The notes under the pieces were generated by a model. That model did no database searches. It was not told the DNA's origin and was given only the letters and a program-made list of their open reading frames with translations. Both the position numbers and the translations under genes were made by a program. Of a stretch of DNA of 64,000 nucleotides, positions 24,589-33,216 are shown in pieces. Position 1 is the first letter of the stretch, and each line of letters starts with the position of its first letter. The DNA comes from Pirellulales bacterium (lineage in GTDB: Bacteria; Planctomycetota; Planctomycetia; Pirellulales; Lacipirellulaceae): assembly GCA_028279215.1 (NCBI GenBank), contig JANQOF010000028.1, positions 1-64,000 on the forward strand, written 5' to 3'.

Positions 24589-25224
24589 TCAATGTGCCGC
24601 TTCCACTTCAGAAGCTTGCGGAAGCACCGTTGTTGCCACTTGGCAGCCCGACGCGGCGAAGTCGTCGACAAGTTGGGGAAAGTAGCTGTCCACCAGCCCA
24701 TTTTGTGCAGCAACGGTCCAATCGGCCGCCTCGGCGCTCGTAGCCTGCCGCGATTTGACCAGCCGCAACTTCGTCGCCCCGAGGCAAGTCGCCAGCCGGC
24801 CGGCAATCGAGTCGCTTGTGACGTGCCATCCTTCCTCAAGGCGTTTGCCCGGCAGTAGCTGTTCTTGGTTTCGGAGAAAGTCCCGCGGTAACAAAACCAT
24901 CCAACCTGGATTGCGGCATTTCGAGACGGCGCTCTCGTACTGCTCTACCAGCGCTACATGGCCTAGCCACGTTGCCAATATCCTACCTGTCACGTGCATG
25001 ATGTCGATGGCACGCCAGTGAGTATCGTATTCTGTGAGGGGCCCTGACGCAGCGATTGCACGCAGGGCATCGACCATCTGCCCGCCACCCATGACTAGCA
25101 CGCGGCACCGCGCGTCGAGAGTTGCGTCTTCTTGAGCGACCCAGGCCCGCAGATCGGCCGCGATGTTGGGCCGGGAAAGCAGACTTCCGCCCAGCTTGAT
25201 GACTTCGACTTCGACGTTTTTCAT
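24589..25224 (-). CDS. mfnE: Amino acid kinase family protein, MfnE-like
   Basis: This 211-residue protein has an amino acid kinase fold, shown by VIKLGGSLL at the N-terminus and VLVMGGGQMVD near 45. MfnE phosphorylates aminomethylfuran phosphate to the diphosphate in methanofuran synthesis. Its ATG overlaps the stop of the MfnF-like gene (ATGA). The assignment rests on the fold plus the MfnD- and MfnF-like neighbours. Bacteria with H4MPT-linked C1 metabolism carry such a kinase among their C1 genes. The product would be a methylofuran-like cofactor. Confidence 0.7.
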   Translation of the reverse strand: MKNVEVEVIKLGGSLLSRPNIAADLRAWVAQEDATLDARCRVLVMGGGQMVDALRAIAASGPLTEYDTHWRAIDIMHVTGRILATWLGHVALVEQYESAVSKCRNPGWMVLLPRDFLRNQEQLLPGKRLEEGWHVTSDSIAGRLATCLGATKLRLVKSRQATSAEAADWTVAAQNGLVDSYFPQLVDDFAASGCQVATTVLPQASEVEAAH

Positions 25225-26231
25225 TCCTGCAGAAACTCCTCCGCCAGTTGGGCGACCGCGTAGGCGGCGGCTGCGCCGCTACGTTGGGTTCCTACATGGC
25301 TCGAAAGTGGGAGGACACAACGGACCATCGGGTGGGTGTCCGCGACTTCGACGGCCAGGAACTCACCGCTGCCCGAGGCGATCACGGCCACAGCTCGATT
25401 GGAAACGCGGGTTGATACCCGAGCGATTGCTTTGCTCAGCAACTCCACCTGGGTTTCTTTTACCACATGGCACACTTCCAGCGCGTCATCGCGGCCGAAG
25501 TTCTCCTGGTCGGCGCATATTTGACGCGCTAAGCGGCCGGTGCAATTTGGCTCGTCGAGTCGTCGGCCATCGGCGGTTGATGTTAAGTCATTCTGGATGT
25601 CGCCTAGTAGCCGATAGACGTCGGCGGTTGCCGCAAACAGTTCCGCCGCCACTGGGCACCGGCCGCCGCGGTAGGGCAGCGACGAGACCAAGGCACAAAT
25701 AGGTGTGCGTTCGACGCCAGTATAAACCAACTCACTCGCCATCAGTCGATCGACGTCAGTTCGACTACCGCTCGCCACTTTGCCGCGATCGACTGGAACG
25801 ACGTCGCTCGTCGTCGAACCAATGTCCAACACAATGCCGGTCCTGTCGGGGAGAAACCGCGATGCTATTTGCGCCAGTGCGTGCCAATTGCTGGCAGCAG
25901 CCAAGCCGGGGCGCTCGCGTGTGTAGATTGGATCGCGGAAGTTGCCGTCCACATGGTAAATCGCGAGCCGCCGATTCGCTGCCGCTACCGTCAGTGCATC
26001 GGTGATGTGACGCACGCCTTCGGCCTTGTTCTGGTAGCAATCGGCCAGCTCTCCGGTCATTGTAGCCGCAATCGCATCACACGACGGAGAAGACTCAACC
26101 AAGTGGATTAGGGCGTCAGAAAGCTCGTCGCGTCGTCGCCACAGTTCAAACGGTATGGAGAGGGCATAGCCGTGTGAGTCGGCGGCTTTCAGATTTGCGC
26201 CGCCCACATCAATGCCGAGCCATCGTCTCAT
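25221..26231 (-). CDS. mfnF: H4MPT-linked C1 transfer pathway protein, MfnF-like
   Basis: This 336-residue protein starts at ATG 26231, which overlaps the previous stop (ATGA); a longer frame to 26327 is open but unlikely. The actin/hexokinase-like phosphate loops GIDVGGANLKAAD and VLDIGSTTSDVV identify the hydantoinase-like family known as the probable H4MPT-linked C1 transfer pathway protein. Its archaeal member MfnF joins aminomethylfuran diphosphate to gamma-glutamyltyramine. It lies exactly between the MfnD- and MfnE-like genes. Confidence 0.75.
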   Translation of the reverse strand: MRRWLGIDVGGANLKAADSHGYALSIPFELWRRRDELSDALIHLVESSPSCDAIAATMTGELADCYQNKAEGVRHITDALTVAAANRRLAIYHVDGNFRDPIYTRERPGLAAASNWHALAQIASRFLPDRTGIVLDIGSTTSDVVPVDRGKVASGSRTDVDRLMASELVYTGVERTPICALVSSLPYRGGRCPVAAELFAATADVYRLLGDIQNDLTSTADGRRLDEPNCTGRLARQICADQENFGRDDALEVCHVVKETQVELLSKAIARVSTRVSNRAVAVIASGSGEFLAVEVADTHPMVRCVLPLSSHVGTQRSGAAAAYAVAQLAEEFLQE

Positions 26232-27235
26232 GATTTCCGCTTCTGAACTTGCCCCGCGGCGGTCCACTCCACCGCGCGATCCAATATGGGCGGTTTGACT
26301 TCTGCACCATTCGACCCGGCCAGGCAAAGCTCCGCAAGGTTTGCGTCGGTTGCCGCACGGAGTCCAACGTAGGACGTGGTGTATCGCGGATTGATCTCAA
26401 TGACTACGTCCTGCGAGCCGTCGCCCGACGGTCCAAGCACCAAGTCCACTCCTACAAGACCGTTGTCCGAAGGCAACGCTTCTACTGCGTCCACCGCAAG
26501 TTGCCGGGCTCGTTCACGCAGCTCCGCGTCCAACGGCAGAGCGCCACCTAAGTACGCAAAGTCCTTGTCCAAGCGTTGGAAACACGGCTCCAGCGCCGTT
26601 GTTGTGTTGGGCCCGCACGCGACAACAACGCTCGCCGGCATTCCAGCAGCGAACTCCTCCAGCCGGTAAGCACCAGTGGCGGCTGGCGCGACATCCGTCT
26701 GGTGCACCTTGTGGATACCCAGCGAACCGCAGCCATCGATCGGTTTTATCATCGCTGGATAGTTGTGGCCGGCGGGGCACGGTTCGCCAGGCATCAGCAC
26801 CGTGCCACGAGGGACGGGAATCCCCGCAGCGTGAAGTGTTTCGGCGGTGCGCTGCTTGTCGGACGCGATTGCTACGAAGTCGGCGCCGGGCGAGAGCAAA
26901 CGACCGCCGAGTCCAACAACTTTGCCTACCAAGCTGAGGAGGATGCCTTCAAATTCCGGTGCGATTAGCAAGGTTGACGTCGACTGAGACGCGAGACGTT
27001 CGAACTCGGCGTCGCGCTCTTCGGACGAGTGAACAACCGCGTGTTCGGCGGCGGACGCCATGGGGGGGAACTCGGCACCCAAGAGCAATCGGACGGCTAC
27101 TCCGGGCACTCGCCCAAAATCGTCAGCCACGGCCGTCAGCATGGCAGCGCCTTCGGCCAGGAGCGATTCTGGCACATGGTCCTTGCGATCGAGGAATCCG
27201 CCGCCGCACACCCACTCGTAGATGAATACGTCCAA
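26228..27235 (-). CDS. mfnD: ATP-grasp enzyme, tyramine-glutamate ligase (MfnD)-like
   Basis: This 335-residue protein has an ATP-grasp fold: DKQRTAETLHAAGIPVPRG, PAMIKPIDGCGSLG and the metal-binding block VIEINPRYTTSYVGLR. MfnD ligates glutamate to tyramine at the start of methanofuran side-chain synthesis; a homologue occurs in the C1 clusters of methylotrophs. The start lies 12 bp after the SufT stop, so it is read through from the suf operon. Together with the next two genes it forms a three-step methanofuran module. Confidence 0.75.
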   Translation of the reverse strand: MDVFIYEWVCGGGFLDRKDHVPESLLAEGAAMLTAVADDFGRVPGVAVRLLLGAEFPPMASAAEHAVVHSSEERDAEFERLASQSTSTLLIAPEFEGILLSLVGKVVGLGGRLLSPGADFVAIASDKQRTAETLHAAGIPVPRGTVLMPGEPCPAGHNYPAMIKPIDGCGSLGIHKVHQTDVAPAATGAYRLEEFAAGMPASVVVACGPNTTTALEPCFQRLDKDFAYLGGALPLDAELRERARQLAVDAVEALPSDNGLVGVDLVLGPSGDGSQDVVIEINPRYTTSYVGLRAATDANLAELCLAGSNGAEVKPPILDRAVEWTAAGQVQKRKS

Positions 27236-27246
27236 AATCGGCGGAC

Positions 27247-27564
27247 CTAAAAGATTCCCAATTGGTCGCGTGCGTCCTCGGTCATACGATCAGGCGTCCA
27301 GGGCGGCGTCATGACGAGCTTGATTTCCACGTCGTCGACGCCTTCGAGCTTCGACACGGCGTCCTTCGACTGGGCGACGAGTTGCGGGCCAGCGGGGCAA
27401 GCCGGGCTGGTCATCGTCATGTCGACTTCCACGTGATTGCCGCCTTCTTCAGCGTCGTTTTGTTTGATGTCGTAGATCAAACCCAAATCGACGATGTTCA
27501 CGAATAACTCAGGATCAATCACTTCTTTGAGCGCTTCGCGAATTGTGTCTTCAGCAATGGCCAT
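27247..27564 (-). CDS. sufT: SufT-like (MIP18/DUF59) iron-sulfur assembly protein
   Basis: This 105-residue protein starts at ATG 27564 with gaagg about ten bases before it; a GTG four codons upstream lacks a ribosome site. It has the DUF59 core ALKEVIDPEL...IVDLGLIYDI, the Cys-containing loop TSPACPAG and the end VMTPPWTPDRM. SufT helps mature Fe-S proteins. It follows the Rieske gene and leads into the mfn genes. Confidence 0.85.
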   Translation of the reverse strand: MAIAEDTIREALKEVIDPELFVNIVDLGLIYDIKQNDAEEGGNHVEVDMTMTSPACPAGPQLVAQSKDAVSKLEGVDDVEIKLVMTPPWTPDRMTEDARDQLGIF

Positions 27565-27582: not shown

Positions 27583-27903
27583 TTAGTCGTTCAGGCGGAC
27601 GAGAACTTGATCGCCGCTAACTTGAACCTCGTGGGCAACAGTTGGTTTGGTCGCCGGCATGGATTTGGCGACGCCTGTCGCCAGATCAAATTTGGCCCCA
27701 TGTCGTGGGCAGGCAATCGTGCAACCGGCCGCGTCGATCTCGCCGTCGCTGAGCGGACCGCCGTCGTGGGTGCAGACGTCGTCGAGGGCGAAAAAGCTCT
27801 CGCCGACACGCACAACAACGACCAATCGATCCTCCACCTCGACCAATTGATGGCCGGGATCAGGAAAATCGGATGCCGACGCAACTCGCACAAACTCTCC
27901 CAT
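27583..27903 (-). CDS. Rieske [2Fe-2S] ferredoxin
   Basis: This is a 106-residue protein. Motifs CTHDGGPL and CPRHGAKF supply the two Cys and two His ligands of a Rieske cluster. It belongs to the small soluble ferredoxin class related to dioxygenase ferredoxins, often found in suf operons, and probably carries electrons or helps repair within the Suf machinery. It lies 10 bp after sufD. Confidence 0.9.
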   Translation of the reverse strand: MGEFVRVASASDFPDPGHQLVEVEDRLVVVVRVGESFFALDDVCTHDGGPLSDGEIDAAGCTIACPRHGAKFDLATGVAKSMPATKPTVAHEVQVSGDQVLVRLND

Positions 27904-27913
27904 GCGCCGGTCC

Positions 27914-29251
27914 CTAACCCTGCGGTGCCGCTTGTTGATCTAGGTCCTGAACGCGACGGGCAATTGCTTCGCCCAAGGCGTTGCGGACCGACTCGATGGT
28001 GATGCGGTCGAACACCTGCTGGAAAAAGCCAGCCACGATCAGTCGGATTGCCTCTGTACGCGTATAGCCACGGCTCATGGCATAAAACACCTGTTGTTCG
28101 TCCACTCTTCCCGAGGTGCTGCCGTGGGTGCAGCGGACGTCGTCAGCTTCGATTTCTAGTCCTGGAATTGAATCGGCTCGAGCCGTGGGAGCTAGCAGAA
28201 GATTGTCGTTGCGCTGATAAGCGTCGGTCCGCTGCGCCGCAACGTCGACCTTGATCATGCCGCGCCACACCGTTCGCGAACGATCCTGCAACGCCGACTT
28301 GTAGAGCAAGTCGCTGCGGCAGTAAGGCGCCATGTGGTGCTGATGCGTGTTGTAAGAGAGGTGCTGACGTCCCTCGGTAAACATCACACCATTGACCTGC
28401 GCGTCCGCGTCGGGGCCGGTGAGGGCGACTTGCTGATTTACTTTTGCGAGTTTGCTTCCGAGCGCTCCGATGGTCCATTGCAATGAGGCATTTCGATCGA
28501 CGGTAGCCCGCTGATGAGCAAAGTGCCAAACACCCGTCGACCAATTCTGAAGATTCACGTAGCGGAGCTTGGCGCTCGGTTCGACGATGAGCTCGATCGA
28601 GCCGCAGTGTAGCCCCTTGGCGTCAGGCGTGACGCTGGCCGTTTCCGTGAGCACCGTCGCTTCGGCGCCGTCTTCAAGGATGACAAGCGTCTTGGAAAGA
28701 TCGACGCCGCCATCGCCGATCGCCGACATCGCGTGCAAGGGTTGCTCCAAAGCTGTACCTTTTGGAACGTACAGCAACGTGCCGCCACTCCAGCATGCTG
28801 CGTGCAGCGCGGCGAATTTGTCCTTGGCTGGATCGACAACGCGACGCTCGAAATATGGCCTTAGAAGATCGCCATGCTCGGTGATCAATCGGTCAAGGCT
28901 ACCGAACAATACGCCCTTGCTAGCCAACTCGTCGGCGAGCGAGTCGTGTAGAGCGGCACCATTGTAACCAACCAACTGGCCACCTAGCTCCACGTCGTAG
29001 GTCAGTAGCCCCGGCGCCAAGGTCGGTGTTTCCGACACTTCGCCTGGGAGCGCAAACTTGTCGAGGTGGAACATGCGAATGTCGGTCCGCATCCACTCTT
29101 CGTCGTTTCTCGCGGGCCAAGCGAATGTCTCGAAGTCACTCCACGCGCGGCGTCGCGTCTCGACTAGCCAGTTTGGCTCGCCGCTCCGCGAGTCGAGGAA
29201 CGACTCGAAATCGGCTTTGGTGAATCCATTTATATCGGTCGCAACTGTCAT
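27914..29251 (-). CDS. sufD: Fe-S cluster assembly protein SufD
   Basis: This 445-residue protein starts at ATG 29251 with gggaag upstream, rather than the longer frame to 29308. It has the SufB/SufD beta-helix core (TLLYVPKGTALEQPLHAMS, ending in SRGYTRTEAIRLIVAGFF). With SufB and SufC it forms the SufBC2D scaffold. It follows sufB. Confidence 0.9.
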   Translation of the reverse strand: MTVATDINGFTKADFESFLDSRSGEPNWLVETRRRAWSDFETFAWPARNDEEWMRTDIRMFHLDKFALPGEVSETPTLAPGLLTYDVELGGQLVGYNGAALHDSLADELASKGVLFGSLDRLITEHGDLLRPYFERRVVDPAKDKFAALHAACWSGGTLLYVPKGTALEQPLHAMSAIGDGGVDLSKTLVILEDGAEATVLTETASVTPDAKGLHCGSIELIVEPSAKLRYVNLQNWSTGVWHFAHQRATVDRNASLQWTIGALGSKLAKVNQQVALTGPDADAQVNGVMFTEGRQHLSYNTHQHHMAPYCRSDLLYKSALQDRSRTVWRGMIKVDVAAQRTDAYQRNDNLLLAPTARADSIPGLEIEADDVRCTHGSTSGRVDEQQVFYAMSRGYTRTEAIRLIVAGFFQQVFDRITIESVRNALGEAIARRVQDLDQQAAPQG

Positions 29252-29308
29252 TGACTTCCCGAAATTCCCTTCAATACAAAACGAAATGTCTGTTGAACTT
29301 GGCGACAA

Positions 29309-30727
29309 TCAGCCAACGCTGCCTTCCATTTGCAACTCGATGAGCCGATTCATTTCCACAGCGTATTCCATCGGCAGTTCTTTGATGAGCGGCTCGATGA
29401 AACCGCTGACGATCATCGAGCTGGCTTCCGCCTCGGTGAGGCCGCGGCTCATTAGGTAGAACAACTGCTCCTCGCCAATTCGGGAGACGCTTGCCTCGTG
29501 CTCGATCTGGACATCTTGCTCTTCGACCTCGATGTACGGGTAGGTGTCACTCCGGCTTTCTGGATCGAGAATCAACGCGTCGCAAACCACATTGCTCTTT
29601 GAGCCGATGGCGCCATCTTCCACTTTGCATAATCCACGGTAGCTGCTGCGGCCGCCGTTCTTGCTGATGCTTTTGGAGATGATGCGTCCCGAAGTGTTGG
29701 GGGCACAGTGAACGAGTTTCGCCCCAGCGTCTTGGTGTTGGCCCTTCGATGCAAACGCGATCGATAGGATCTCACCACGGGCGCCTGGCTCCATCATGTA
29801 GACGGCGGGGTATTTCATCGTGAGTTGGCTTCCGAGGTTCCCGTCGATCCATTCCATTAGAGCGTTCTCGTACGCCATGGCGCGCTTCGTGACCAGGTTG
29901 TAGATGTTGTTTGCCCAGTTTTGGATGGTCGTATAACGGCAGCGGCCGTTCTTCTTTACTACGATTTCGACCACGGCCGAGTGAAGGCTCTCGGTGGAAT
30001 ACATCGGGGCGGTGCACCCTTCGACGTAATGCACCTCGGCGCCTTCGTCGACGATGATTAGCGTGCGTTCGAACTGCCCCATACTTTCGGCGTTGATTCG
30101 GAAGTACGCTTGCAGCGGAAAGTCGATCTTTACGCCTTTGGGGACGTAGATGAACGAACCGCCCGACCAAACGGCCGAATTGAGCGCGGCGAACTTGTTG
30201 TCATGTGGCGGAATGATCGTACCGAAGTACTCGCGCAAGAGCTCAGGGTGTTCGCGAACTGCGGTGTCGGTGTCAGTAAAGATCACTCCCTTCTCGGCTA
30301 GATCTTCCTGAAGCGATCCATAGACGACTTCGCTTTCGAATTGTGCCTTTACGCCAGCGAGGAACTTGCGTTCCGCCTCGGGAATGCCCAGCTTGTCAAA
30401 TGTGTCTTTGATTTCTTGCGGCACGTCGTCCCAGGTCTTGCCCTGCTCTTCGGTGGGCTTGAGGTAGTAGTAGACATCCTGGAAGTCGAGATTAATCGCG
30501 CCGCCCCAGTTGGGCATCGGCTTCGATTCGAATATCTCAAGAGACTCGAGTCGAAACTCGCGCATCCAGTCAGGCTCGTCTTTCAGATCGGATATCTGCG
30601 ACACGACCTCGGCATCGAGACCCTTACGGGCCTTAAACACACCGGTGGTGGGGGTCACAAAGTCGTACTTGTTGATTTCGCCAAGGGCTGCTTCGTCATT
30701 AGCAGGGGCGGTAAGGTCGGTTGCCAT
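29309..30727 (-). CDS. sufB: Fe-S cluster assembly protein SufB
   Basis: This 472-residue protein has near-full SufB conservation: [33 protein letters not shown] and [20 protein letters not shown]. It is the cluster-building subunit of SufBC2D. It starts 54 bp after sufC. Confidence 0.95.
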
Positions 30728-30781: not shown

Positions 30782-31612
30782 CTAAACGGTGGTCGCTTCT
30801 TCAGCCAATTCGGCTTCGGCAGCCGCGGCTTCTGGGTACGCGGCGCGGATGCGGTCGTAACCTTCGGTGTACAACTCGCGGGCCAGTTCCACTCCGCCGG
30901 TCTCGACGATTTTGCCGCCCAGCATCACGTGGGTGAAGTCGGGAGCGTTGTGGTCGAGCAGCTTGTCATGGTGAGTGATGATCAAGATGCCCATCTCGGC
31001 GCCGCCATCGGTTTCTTGGCTGATCGCAGCAATACTCTGGCTGGCAAGTTTCACGGCATCGACATCCAAGCCGCTATCGGTCTCGTCGAGAATTGCAAAC
31101 TTCGGCCGCAGCATGGCCATCTGCAAGATTTCCGCTCGTTTCATCTCGCCGCCTGAAAAGCCATCGTTCACGTAACGGCGAGCGAACTCCTCGTCCATGC
31201 GAAGCTGCGACATCTTCTCTTTGAGTTCCTTGCGAAACTCTCGCATCGATATTAGGTCTTCACCTTCCTTGCGTTCGGGGTTGCGGACGTTTGTGGCCGC
31301 GTGTCGTAAGAAGTCGGCCATCTTCACACCCGGCACCGACATCGGTCGTTGGAACGCCATGAAGATGCCGGCGCGTGCCCGCTCCGAGGCATCCCACTCC
31401 AAAATGTCTTCGCCATTGATCTCAATGGAACCTTCGGTGACCTCGTACCCTGGGTGACCCATAATGGCGTTGCCCAACGTACTCTTGCCCGAGCCATTGG
31501 GGCCCATAAGTGCATGCGTTTCGCCTCGATTGATTGTAAGGTTCACCCCACGCAAAATCGGCTTGCCTTCGACAGCCACATGCAAGTCCGTAATCTTCAA
31601 CGTATCGCTCAT
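30782..31612 (-). CDS. sufC: Fe-S cluster assembly ATPase SufC
   Basis: This 276-residue ABC-type ATPase has Walker A GPNGSGKSTLG, signature FSGGEMKRAEIL and Walker B FAILDETDSGLDVDAV. It powers SufBC2D in the cytoplasm. A C-terminal Ala/Glu-rich tail extends it slightly beyond the usual 250 residues. It starts 20 bp after nuoB. Confidence 0.95.
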   Translation of the reverse strand: MSDTLKITDLHVAVEGKPILRGVNLTINRGETHALMGPNGSGKSTLGNAIMGHPGYEVTEGSIEINGEDILEWDASERARAGIFMAFQRPMSVPGVKMADFLRHAATNVRNPERKEGEDLISMREFRKELKEKMSQLRMDEEFARRYVNDGFSGGEMKRAEILQMAMLRPKFAILDETDSGLDVDAVKLASQSIAAISQETDGGAEMGILIITHHDKLLDHNAPDFTHVMLGGKIVETGGVELARELYTEGYDRIRAAYPEAAAAEAELAEEATTV

Positions 31613-31632: not shown

Positions 31633-32286
31633 TTAACTTGTTATTTTCTGGTGATCGAACAGCGGCTCGGTGTCGGCAGGAGCGGACGTGTAGCCCGAGT
31701 GGTGCGGCACCGGCAATTCGTCTTCCATCTTTTTTCCGGGACCGGCAAAGCCGGCGAACTCTGACTTGCTGGCAATCCGGTGAGCGTTGATCTTGTCTTG
31801 GACTCTCATGAGTCCTTCGAGCAACGCTTCGGGGCGTGGTGGGCAGCCGGGGACGTAGACGTCGACAGGTACCACCAAGTCGACCCCCTTAACCACGTGA
31901 TAGCCATACTTGAAGTATGGGCCGCCACCGACGGTGCATGCGCCCATGGCGATCACAAACTTTGGATCCGGCATCAGGTTGTAGAGCCGTCGCACGCGGC
32001 TGGCCATCTTGTAGGTGACCGTTCCGGCGACAATCATCAGGTCGGCTTGACGCGGAGTTGCCCGAAACGCTCCGGCGCCGAAGCGGTCCATGTCGTAGCG
32101 ACTCGCGCCGGCGGCCATCATCTCAATCGCACAGCACGCCAGCCCGAACGTCATTGGCCAAATGCTCGATTGGCGGCTCCAGTTGATCGCCTGTTCCACC
32201 GTCGTCACGACGACGTTTTCCTCAAAACGGCCTTCAATCCATGGCTCGTGCATTGGGATGACTTTGCGGTTGGGTGATTCAAACAT
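31633..32286 (-). CDS. nuoB: NADH-quinone oxidoreductase subunit B, orphan copy
   Basis: This 217-residue protein keeps the NuoB core with all four N2-cluster ligands in [20 protein letters not shown] and [12 protein letters not shown]. NuoB carries the last Fe-S cluster before quinone in complex I. No other nuo gene is near. It sits between the SufR-like gene and sufC with 20-21 bp gaps, so it is expressed with the Fe-S machinery. The 30-residue C-terminal tail (after FAGPGKK) is variable. Confidence 0.9.
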
Positions 32287-32307: not shown

Positions 32308-32937
32308 CTACTTTGGTGTGCCGCTCGGCTGGAACGAACAGCAGCTATCGCCGTGGGGCCTACAATCCGTGAGTTTCATCGTTTCGCCAAGCACCTCGGA
32401 AAACAACATTCGCTCCATGGCGCAGATACTCTTGTCGTGCTCAACCAGTTCAGGGTAGGGGCAGGCAACCGCCGTAAGCACCGGCAAGTCGCCTGACTTG
32501 TCCACTTCAAACGGGATATGACGCTCTTGCATCAGGTCGGCCAGACGCTGCATCTTCTCTTCGAGCGTGTCGCCCGGAATCTCCCCAGCACGCTCGGCCA
32601 ACTGCATCGCAATTCGCTTCAGCAATCCTGCACGAATCGTGGGGTCGTCGATCGAGCGAATCTCCGCCCATAGCACGTCGACTAGGTCGGCATAGTTGTT
32701 GCCGCTGGCGCGAAGTCCTTTGTCGGTGAGTTGGTAGCGGTGACTCGGCCGCCCGCGCCCACCGCGAACGACTTCTTCGCGGCAAATCAAATCCTCCTCC
32801 ATCAGCCGATTCAGCCGCTGCCGGACCGCGGTGGCGGTGACCCCCAGCGACTCCACCAACTCACTAATTCCCGCACTCCCCCGCTTTCGGAGCAGGTTCA
32901 GCAGTGACTCATCGGAATCGGTGACCGGTGGGAACAT
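32308..32937 (-). CDS. sufR: SufR-like transcriptional regulator
   Basis: This 209-residue protein has a winged-helix DeoR/ArsR-like N-terminus (ISELVESLGVTATAVRQRL, wing GGRGRPSHRY) and a C-terminal dimer region ending in Cys residues (CPYPELVEHD, SICAME, CRPHGDSCCSF). SufR-type repressors bind an Fe-S cluster there and repress suf genes when cluster supply is adequate. It heads the operon, and the palindrome before it suggests autoregulation. Confidence 0.85.
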   Translation of the reverse strand: MFPPVTDSDESLLNLLRKRGSAGISELVESLGVTATAVRQRLNRLMEEDLICREEVVRGGRGRPSHRYQLTDKGLRASGNNYADLVDVLWAEIRSIDDPTIRAGLLKRIAMQLAERAGEIPGDTLEEKMQRLADLMQERHIPFEVDKSGDLPVLTAVACPYPELVEHDKSICAMERMLFSEVLGETMKLTDCRPHGDSCCSFQPSGTPK

Positions 32938-32999: not shown

Positions 33000-33027
33000 A
33001 TGATAAGACGTTAGCTATTTTTGACAA
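33000..33027 (-). promoter_or_regulatory. Promoter of the sufR-suf-mfn operon
   Basis: On the minus strand TTGTCA (33027-33022) and TATCAT (33005-33000) are 16 bp apart. They lie about 65 bp before sufR, and one arm of the inverted repeat falls between the two hexamers. Confidence 0.6.
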
Positions 33028-33048
33028 GGGAAGGTTTCTAAAATAGCT
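33013..33048. promoter_or_regulatory. Candidate SufR operator (9-bp perfect inverted repeat)
   Basis: Arms agctatttt (33013-33021) and aaaatagct (33040-33048) are perfect complements separated by 18 bp. They straddle the -35 box of the sufR promoter and lie between sufR and the divergent transporter gene. No known SufR box matches exactly. Confidence 0.5.
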
Positions 33049-33075
33049 GCGGGGGCTTCGGTTTTTCGTAAAGTA

Positions 33076-33104
33076 TTGCGGTGCAACGGCTTATCGACTA
33101 TAAG
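33076..33104 (+). promoter_or_regulatory. Promoter of the NSS transporter gene
   Basis: TTGCGG (33076-33081) and TATAAG (33099-33104) are 17 bp apart on the plus strand, about 110 bp before the transporter start. Confidence 0.5.
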
Positions 33105-33216
33105 GCTTCTGCAAGTCGCGCCCAAGGTGCCCTAACTCTGTAACAAACGGCGATCGCCGCGTTTATGAGTGCATACTGGCAGTCGCATCGAACCCAACTG
33201 ACTCAAGGAACCCCGA

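Follow-up and report, generated by a model that had tools for sequence, protein, structure and literature searches.

The window analysed here, a stretch of DNA covering bases 1-64000 of C75, a 69-kb contig in a genome of 4.56 Mb that is 95% complete, carries ten co-directional genes on the minus strand, as seen from the open reading frame listing and the sequence. Their order is sufR-nuoB-sufC-sufB-sufD-Rieske-sufT-mfnD-mfnF-mfnE. The genes and the features preceding them are listed below from the upstream end.

33015..33046, minus strand: candidate operator-like site of 32 bp, CTATTTTAGAAACCTTCCCTTGTCAAAAATAG, conserved in relatives; includes the -35 (TTGTCA) of the predicted operon promoter
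33000..33027, minus strand: sigma-70-like promoter TTGTCA-16-TATCAT before sufR (consensus match only)
32308..32937, minus strand: sufR-like wHTH regulator gene (TIGR02702, 52.2 bits, below the cut-off of 178.8; cysteines C-x12-C-x19-C-x6-C-C)
31633..32286, minus strand: nuoB-like gene for a complex I subunit, within the operon
30782..31612, minus strand: sufC (TIGR01978, 323 bits, above cut-off)
29309..30727, minus strand: sufB (TIGR01980, 710.7 bits, above cut-off)
27914..29308, minus strand: sufD (TIGR01981, 255.1 bits, above cut-off)
27583..27903, minus strand: Rieske-type ferredoxin gene
27247..27564, minus strand: sufT (DUF59/FeS_assembly_P)
26228..27235, minus strand: mfnD-like ATP-grasp ligase gene (MfnD or MyfA), TTG start (best NCBIfam match MfnD_Meth, 69.1 bits)
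25221..26231, minus strand: mfnF (TIGR03123, 284.7 bits, above cut-off)
24589..25224, minus strand: mfnE, amino-acid-kinase fold (AlphaFold model and PDB match)

The successive gaps from sufR to mfnE are 21, 20, 54, 0, 10, 18, 11, -4 and -4 bp, with a maximum of 54 bp. The initial annotation described the mfn genes as attached to suf in the manner of an operon, with ATGA overlaps at the mfnD/mfnF and mfnF/mfnE junctions and 12 bp between sufT and mfnD. Both overlaps are present in the sequence, the gap measures 11 bp, and the attachment is borne out by the gaps, the overlaps and its recurrence in Pirellulales. The same annotation named a strong promoter between sufT and mfnD as an argument against the link. 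A scan of the minus strand detected no sigma-70-like promoter there, and the best one (33027-33000) lies before sufR. The nuoB-like gene (31633-32286, minus strand) between sufR and sufC holds a position that is conserved across Pirellulales.

Identity of the mfn genes and the remaining C1 pathway

The names mfnD, mfnF and mfnE had been assigned from the sequence alone, and the three products are genuine members of these families. MfnF matches TIGR03123 (H4MPT-linked C1 transfer protein) with 284.7 bits over positions 1-326 of 327, passing the cut-off of 244.1, and falls short of the equivalog NF040623 (194.6 bits, cut-off 520). Its profile also picks up a structurally characterised archaeal relative (3c0b/3cet). 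For MfnE, the sole family match of the window protein is NF040622, at 40.7 bits against a cut-off of 300. The NCBIfam MfnE family is matched by 18 of 18 aligned MfnE relatives, and the AlphaFold model (mean pLDDT 95.4) has as its top PDB match the MfnE of Methanococcus vannielii (7qrh, rank 1, E 7.2e-11, TM 0.70). The MfnD-like protein scores 69.1 bits with NF040722 (tyramine-glutamate ligase; below the cut-off of 400) and above the cut-off of ATP-grasp_3, and carries the invariant ATP-grasp residues K127, K164, D264, N282 and R284. MfnD and MyfA each act in the furan pathway as ATP-grasp ligases (PMC8141765). Since no second strong member of the MfnD family was found in the window genome, the product may be either MfnD or MyfA, and the two are indistinguishable here. 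This choice aside, the gene identities and their compact order are established at the level of sequence.

Paralogues with some other role, as opposed to furan-cofactor genes, might be suspected from the scores of MfnD and MfnE, which are far below their equivalog cut-offs. However, MfnF passes the TIGR03123 cut-off, the MfnE family is matched by every aligned relative with MfnE itself as the best structural match, and mfnB occurs in 20 of 20 MfnF-positive genomes tested and in none of five MfnF-negative ones. The suggestion of paralogues is thus already disfavoured and seems very improbable.

The window genome also contains fhcA, fhcD, mch and mfnB, as well as fhcB, which is divided between two contig ends; the fhc genes, mch and mfnB sit on contigs other than that of mfnDFE. 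A beta-RFAP-synthase match scores 96 bits, below the model cut-off of 113.5, and mch adjoins a RimK-like ATP-grasp gene resembling myfB. Absence of fhc and other H4MPT genes had been put forward as the main ground for rejecting the suf-mfn link; because fhcA, fhcB, fhcD, mch and mfnB are present, this test does not refute it. The fhcD locus was considered as a source of further C1 neighbours and rejected, as fhcD lies beside rpsA (ribosomal protein S1) and not beside other fhc genes. The same adjacency is seen in the window genome (L032:10604-13153) and in genomes of the Botrimarina clade (L308, L309, L310).

The iron-sulfur requirement of the Fhc complex was originally offered as the reason for the link. 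This proposal concerns why the arrangement exists, and is not an alternative to an operon. In its favour, FhcB of the window genome keeps N-terminal [4Fe-4S]-type cysteines, C-x2-C-x3-C...C (TCTACGCTCDD...AC), as do 17 other FhcB-family sequences aligned. A [4Fe-4S] cluster is therefore possible in this protein, and joint expression may benefit the Fhc complex. The Mo/W-ligand cysteine is missing from the same protein, which reads PTGDSAS where VCHGPS is expected; several relatives keep both the N-terminal cysteines and the Mo/W cysteine. However, the FhcB of methylotrophs is a scaffold without Mo/W-bisPGD according to an enzyme-superfamily study (PMC10100899), and detached mfn genes lack the operator-like site described below. 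In addition, three genomes outside Pirellulales (G291, G238 and G061) have the same FhcB cysteines with no suf-mfn linkage, so an FhcB cluster alone does not explain the linkage. The reason first offered is partly supported by the four cysteines, but appears unlikely overall. Planctomycete FhcB proteins (L277-L292, L300, L301) are of two kinds, those with the Mo/W cysteine (FwdB-like) and those with Fe-S cysteines only. G291, G380 and G392 each carry two FhcB copies scoring above the FwdB-type cut-off.

Gene order across planctomycetes

A survey of gene order in planctomycetes, suggested at the outset as a check, was carried out. Among 117 Pirellulales genomes, MfnF was found in 95 and Mch in 92. 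The mfn neighbourhoods were read in 62 Pirellulales genomes picked to span families, and 61 of these could be judged. In 27 of the 61, sufT and mfnD are direct neighbours (<400 bp apart); in nine, sufT lies upstream of mfnD with inserted genes; and in 25, suf and mfn are unlinked. Overall, linkage occurs in 36/61 Pirellulales genomes and 11/19 families, and is absent from all 23 mfn-carrying planctomycetes surveyed outside Pirellulales. The complete gene order occurs, among others, in Blastopirellula marina DSM 3645 (L257). The broader planctomycete set consists of 26 loci, of which the three Pirellulales ones (G121, G205, G274) show suf linkage and the remaining 23 do not.

The arrangement is not due to chance, as the same order recurs in 36 of the 61 genomes while the genes downstream of mfnE are common to members of a genus only. 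Sharing is more frequent for a gene upstream of sufR (6/27). On the MfnF tree, the root of which is not fixed, the linkage label needs 13 changes, compared with a mean of 27.8 when shuffled. The suf-mfn arrangement probably goes back to an ancestor of much of Pirellulales, with repeated later losses. Genes between sufT and mfnD were considered as extra pathway members and rejected, being unrelated and mostly antisense. The nine genomes with inserts and the 25 without linkage indicate that separate mfn promoters evolved easily. A shared new partner for detached mfn genes was also sought and rejected, none being recurrent except lipA in the Botrimarina clade.

This clade (G347, G370, G375 and G384 of g213, together with G364) differs in its pathway genes. 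Profile searches did not find FhcA, FhcB, Mch or beta-RFAP synthase in any of the five genomes. The absence of beta-RFAP synthase is weaker evidence than the other three, since its model scores low in this phylum. Mch is present in 23 of 23 MfnF-positive genomes tested outside Pirellulales. All five keep mfnB, mfnF, mfnE and FhcD, and four keep mfnD (all but G364). FhcD looks intact in four; that of G364 is known from a profile match alone. The clade offers a natural experiment, in that FhcD and the ability to make the furan seem to have survived the loss of the other pathway steps. In all five genomes (L094, L096, L097, L098, L100, L306-L310) the neighbour of the mfn genes is lipA, which encodes lipoyl synthase, and in one of them the orientation is head to head; no lipA turned up near mfn in the remaining Pirellulales loci searched. 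In G375, which is without FhcA, the gene at L308:7705-9788 encodes an Amidohydro_2 protein and overlaps the fhcD end; this protein might replace the hydrolase. Given the retention of mfn beside lipA and of FhcD in this clade, and the many relatives that carry mfn behind suf, the furan carrier could conceivably act beyond the H4MPT pathway, in the vicinity of Fe-S or lipoate metabolism, with FhcD moving formyl between furan and another acceptor such as folate. We regard such a role as quite improbable.

A candidate operator and its possible role

The 32-bp site is found at the operon head in 37 of 39 distinct upstream regions from relatives, with the consensus ctATTTTTCAAAtAt.t.GTTGTCAAAAATg and 29 bits of information; shuffled sequences score 2.0 at the 95th percentile, with a maximum of 16.8. 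The profile was built on operon heads, and so its fit to these same upstream regions is partly by construction. The independent part of the evidence is its specificity. In 2.38 Mb, 45 of 59 profile matches of at least 14 bits fall at operon heads, and 12 of the 14 others correspond to those heads read in reverse. The site occurs at one place in the window, it is the single pattern match in its own genome, and a pattern search of three genomes from the genus gave one copy per genome. Before mfnD, no score above 8.0 was found in 160 loci (64 linked, 96 unlinked), and an operator-like site before detached mfn genes was rejected, as none of the 96 loci rises above background. Word counting for an exact palindrome gave only TTGACA-N8-TGTCAA in four sequences, and the site was found by profile instead. 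A second conserved stretch lies at approximately 33066-33105 (minus strand), about 20-60 bp upstream of the site, and in relatives resembles TTTTAGTCRATAA and GTCAACAGGTTACG.

Cyanobacterial SufR represses suf by binding CAAC-N6-GTTG (PMC8593673). A related core, CAAA-N6-GTTG, is present in 10 of the 37 sites, with TTG invariant; the site in the window departs from this core and reads GAAA-N6-CTTG. The cysteine pattern of the SufR-like protein in the window, C-x12-C-x19-C-x6-C-C, is also found in 12 relatives, and these C-terminal cysteines could hold a putative Fe-S cluster. The SufR-like protein would be the presumed binding partner of the candidate site.

Taken with the conservation of the arrangement within Pirellulales, itself read from sequence like that of the site, these features make a regulatory link between suf and mfn plausible, and the conserved candidate operator before sufR gives it a testable form. 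We consider it probable that mfnDFE are working core genes for the furan carrier used in one-carbon metabolism (methanofuran/methylofuran), forming the distal part of a ten-gene transcript under SufR control. A single promoter before sufR would drive this transcript, with mfnD-mfnF-mfnE at its distal end, and the SufR-like protein would occupy the conserved site that covers the -35. With its Fe-S cluster intact it would repress, as described for cyanobacterial SufR, and it would be released when clusters are scarce or damaged; synthesis of the furan carrier would then rise with SUF. Because mfnDFE form the tail of the suf operon behind one operator-like site, the Fe-S status of the cell may also set the amount of carrier. 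Several observations count against this proposal: SufR, MfnD and MfnE are below curated equivalog cut-offs, linkage is interrupted in nine genomes and missing in 25, mfn genes that have become detached are no longer preceded by the site, and the site in the window departs from the CAAA-N6-GTTG core. Such coupling is also not generally required, since 25 Pirellulales genomes and 23 outside the order are unlinked and the 96 unlinked mfn loci are free of the site.

These points also bear on another possibility, in which a single early event in a Pirellulales ancestor placed mfnDFE behind sufT, and the genes stayed there as short gaps and overlaps are seldom broken. They would then be expressed either by read-through, with no specific benefit, or from a promoter inside sufT. 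The loss or interruption of linkage in 34 of the 61 genomes, the absence of a compensating site before detached mfn genes and the unrelated nature of the genes inserted between sufT and mfnD are in keeping with such a history. However, the block persists in 11 families while its downstream neighbours turn over, and the scan of the window revealed no promoter separating mfnD from sufT. Adjacency by history is possible, although we think it rather doubtful. If SufR control of the ten-gene transcript is correct, a C1-cofactor branch would be tied to cellular Fe-S status through one operator, and the use of a furan carrier in planctomycetes becomes testable by iron limitation combined with transcript assays.

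Comparison with known systems

H4MPT/methanofuran C1 genes are already known in Planctomycetes (PMC5020050). Neither their linkage to suf nor an operator-linked Fe-S coupling of furan genes was described in the papers found, most subscription papers being outside the scope of the search. The arrangement is real and conserved, it is made of known parts, and no description of it as a whole was found there.

The methylofuran pathway of methylotrophic proteobacteria comprises MfnB/Orf22, MfnE/Orf21, MfnF/Orf9, MyfA and MyfB (PMC8141765). The same enzyme families are present here, including a myfB-like gene beside mch. However, the methylotroph genes belong to an archaeal-like C1 cluster that also contains fhcABCD and H4MPT genes, whereas here mfnDFE follow suf. 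The SufR-controlled suf operons of cyanobacteria and actinobacteria (PMC8593673) resemble this one in that sufR heads suf, the regulator has a cysteine-rich C-terminus and a conserved, partly palindromic site covers the promoter. They differ in that SufR here scores below the family cut-off, the cysteine spacing diverges after C-x12-C, the core is CAAA-N6-GTTG-like in place of CAAC-N6-GTTG, and the operon also takes in nuoB, a Rieske protein gene, sufT and mfnDFE. Recruitment of sufT to suf operons has occurred, and been reversed, repeatedly (PMC4982691); sufT lies beside sufBCD in this operon as well, but here it is followed by a cofactor module. The new element is the 32-bp operator-like site, which heads the operon and never precedes mfnD.
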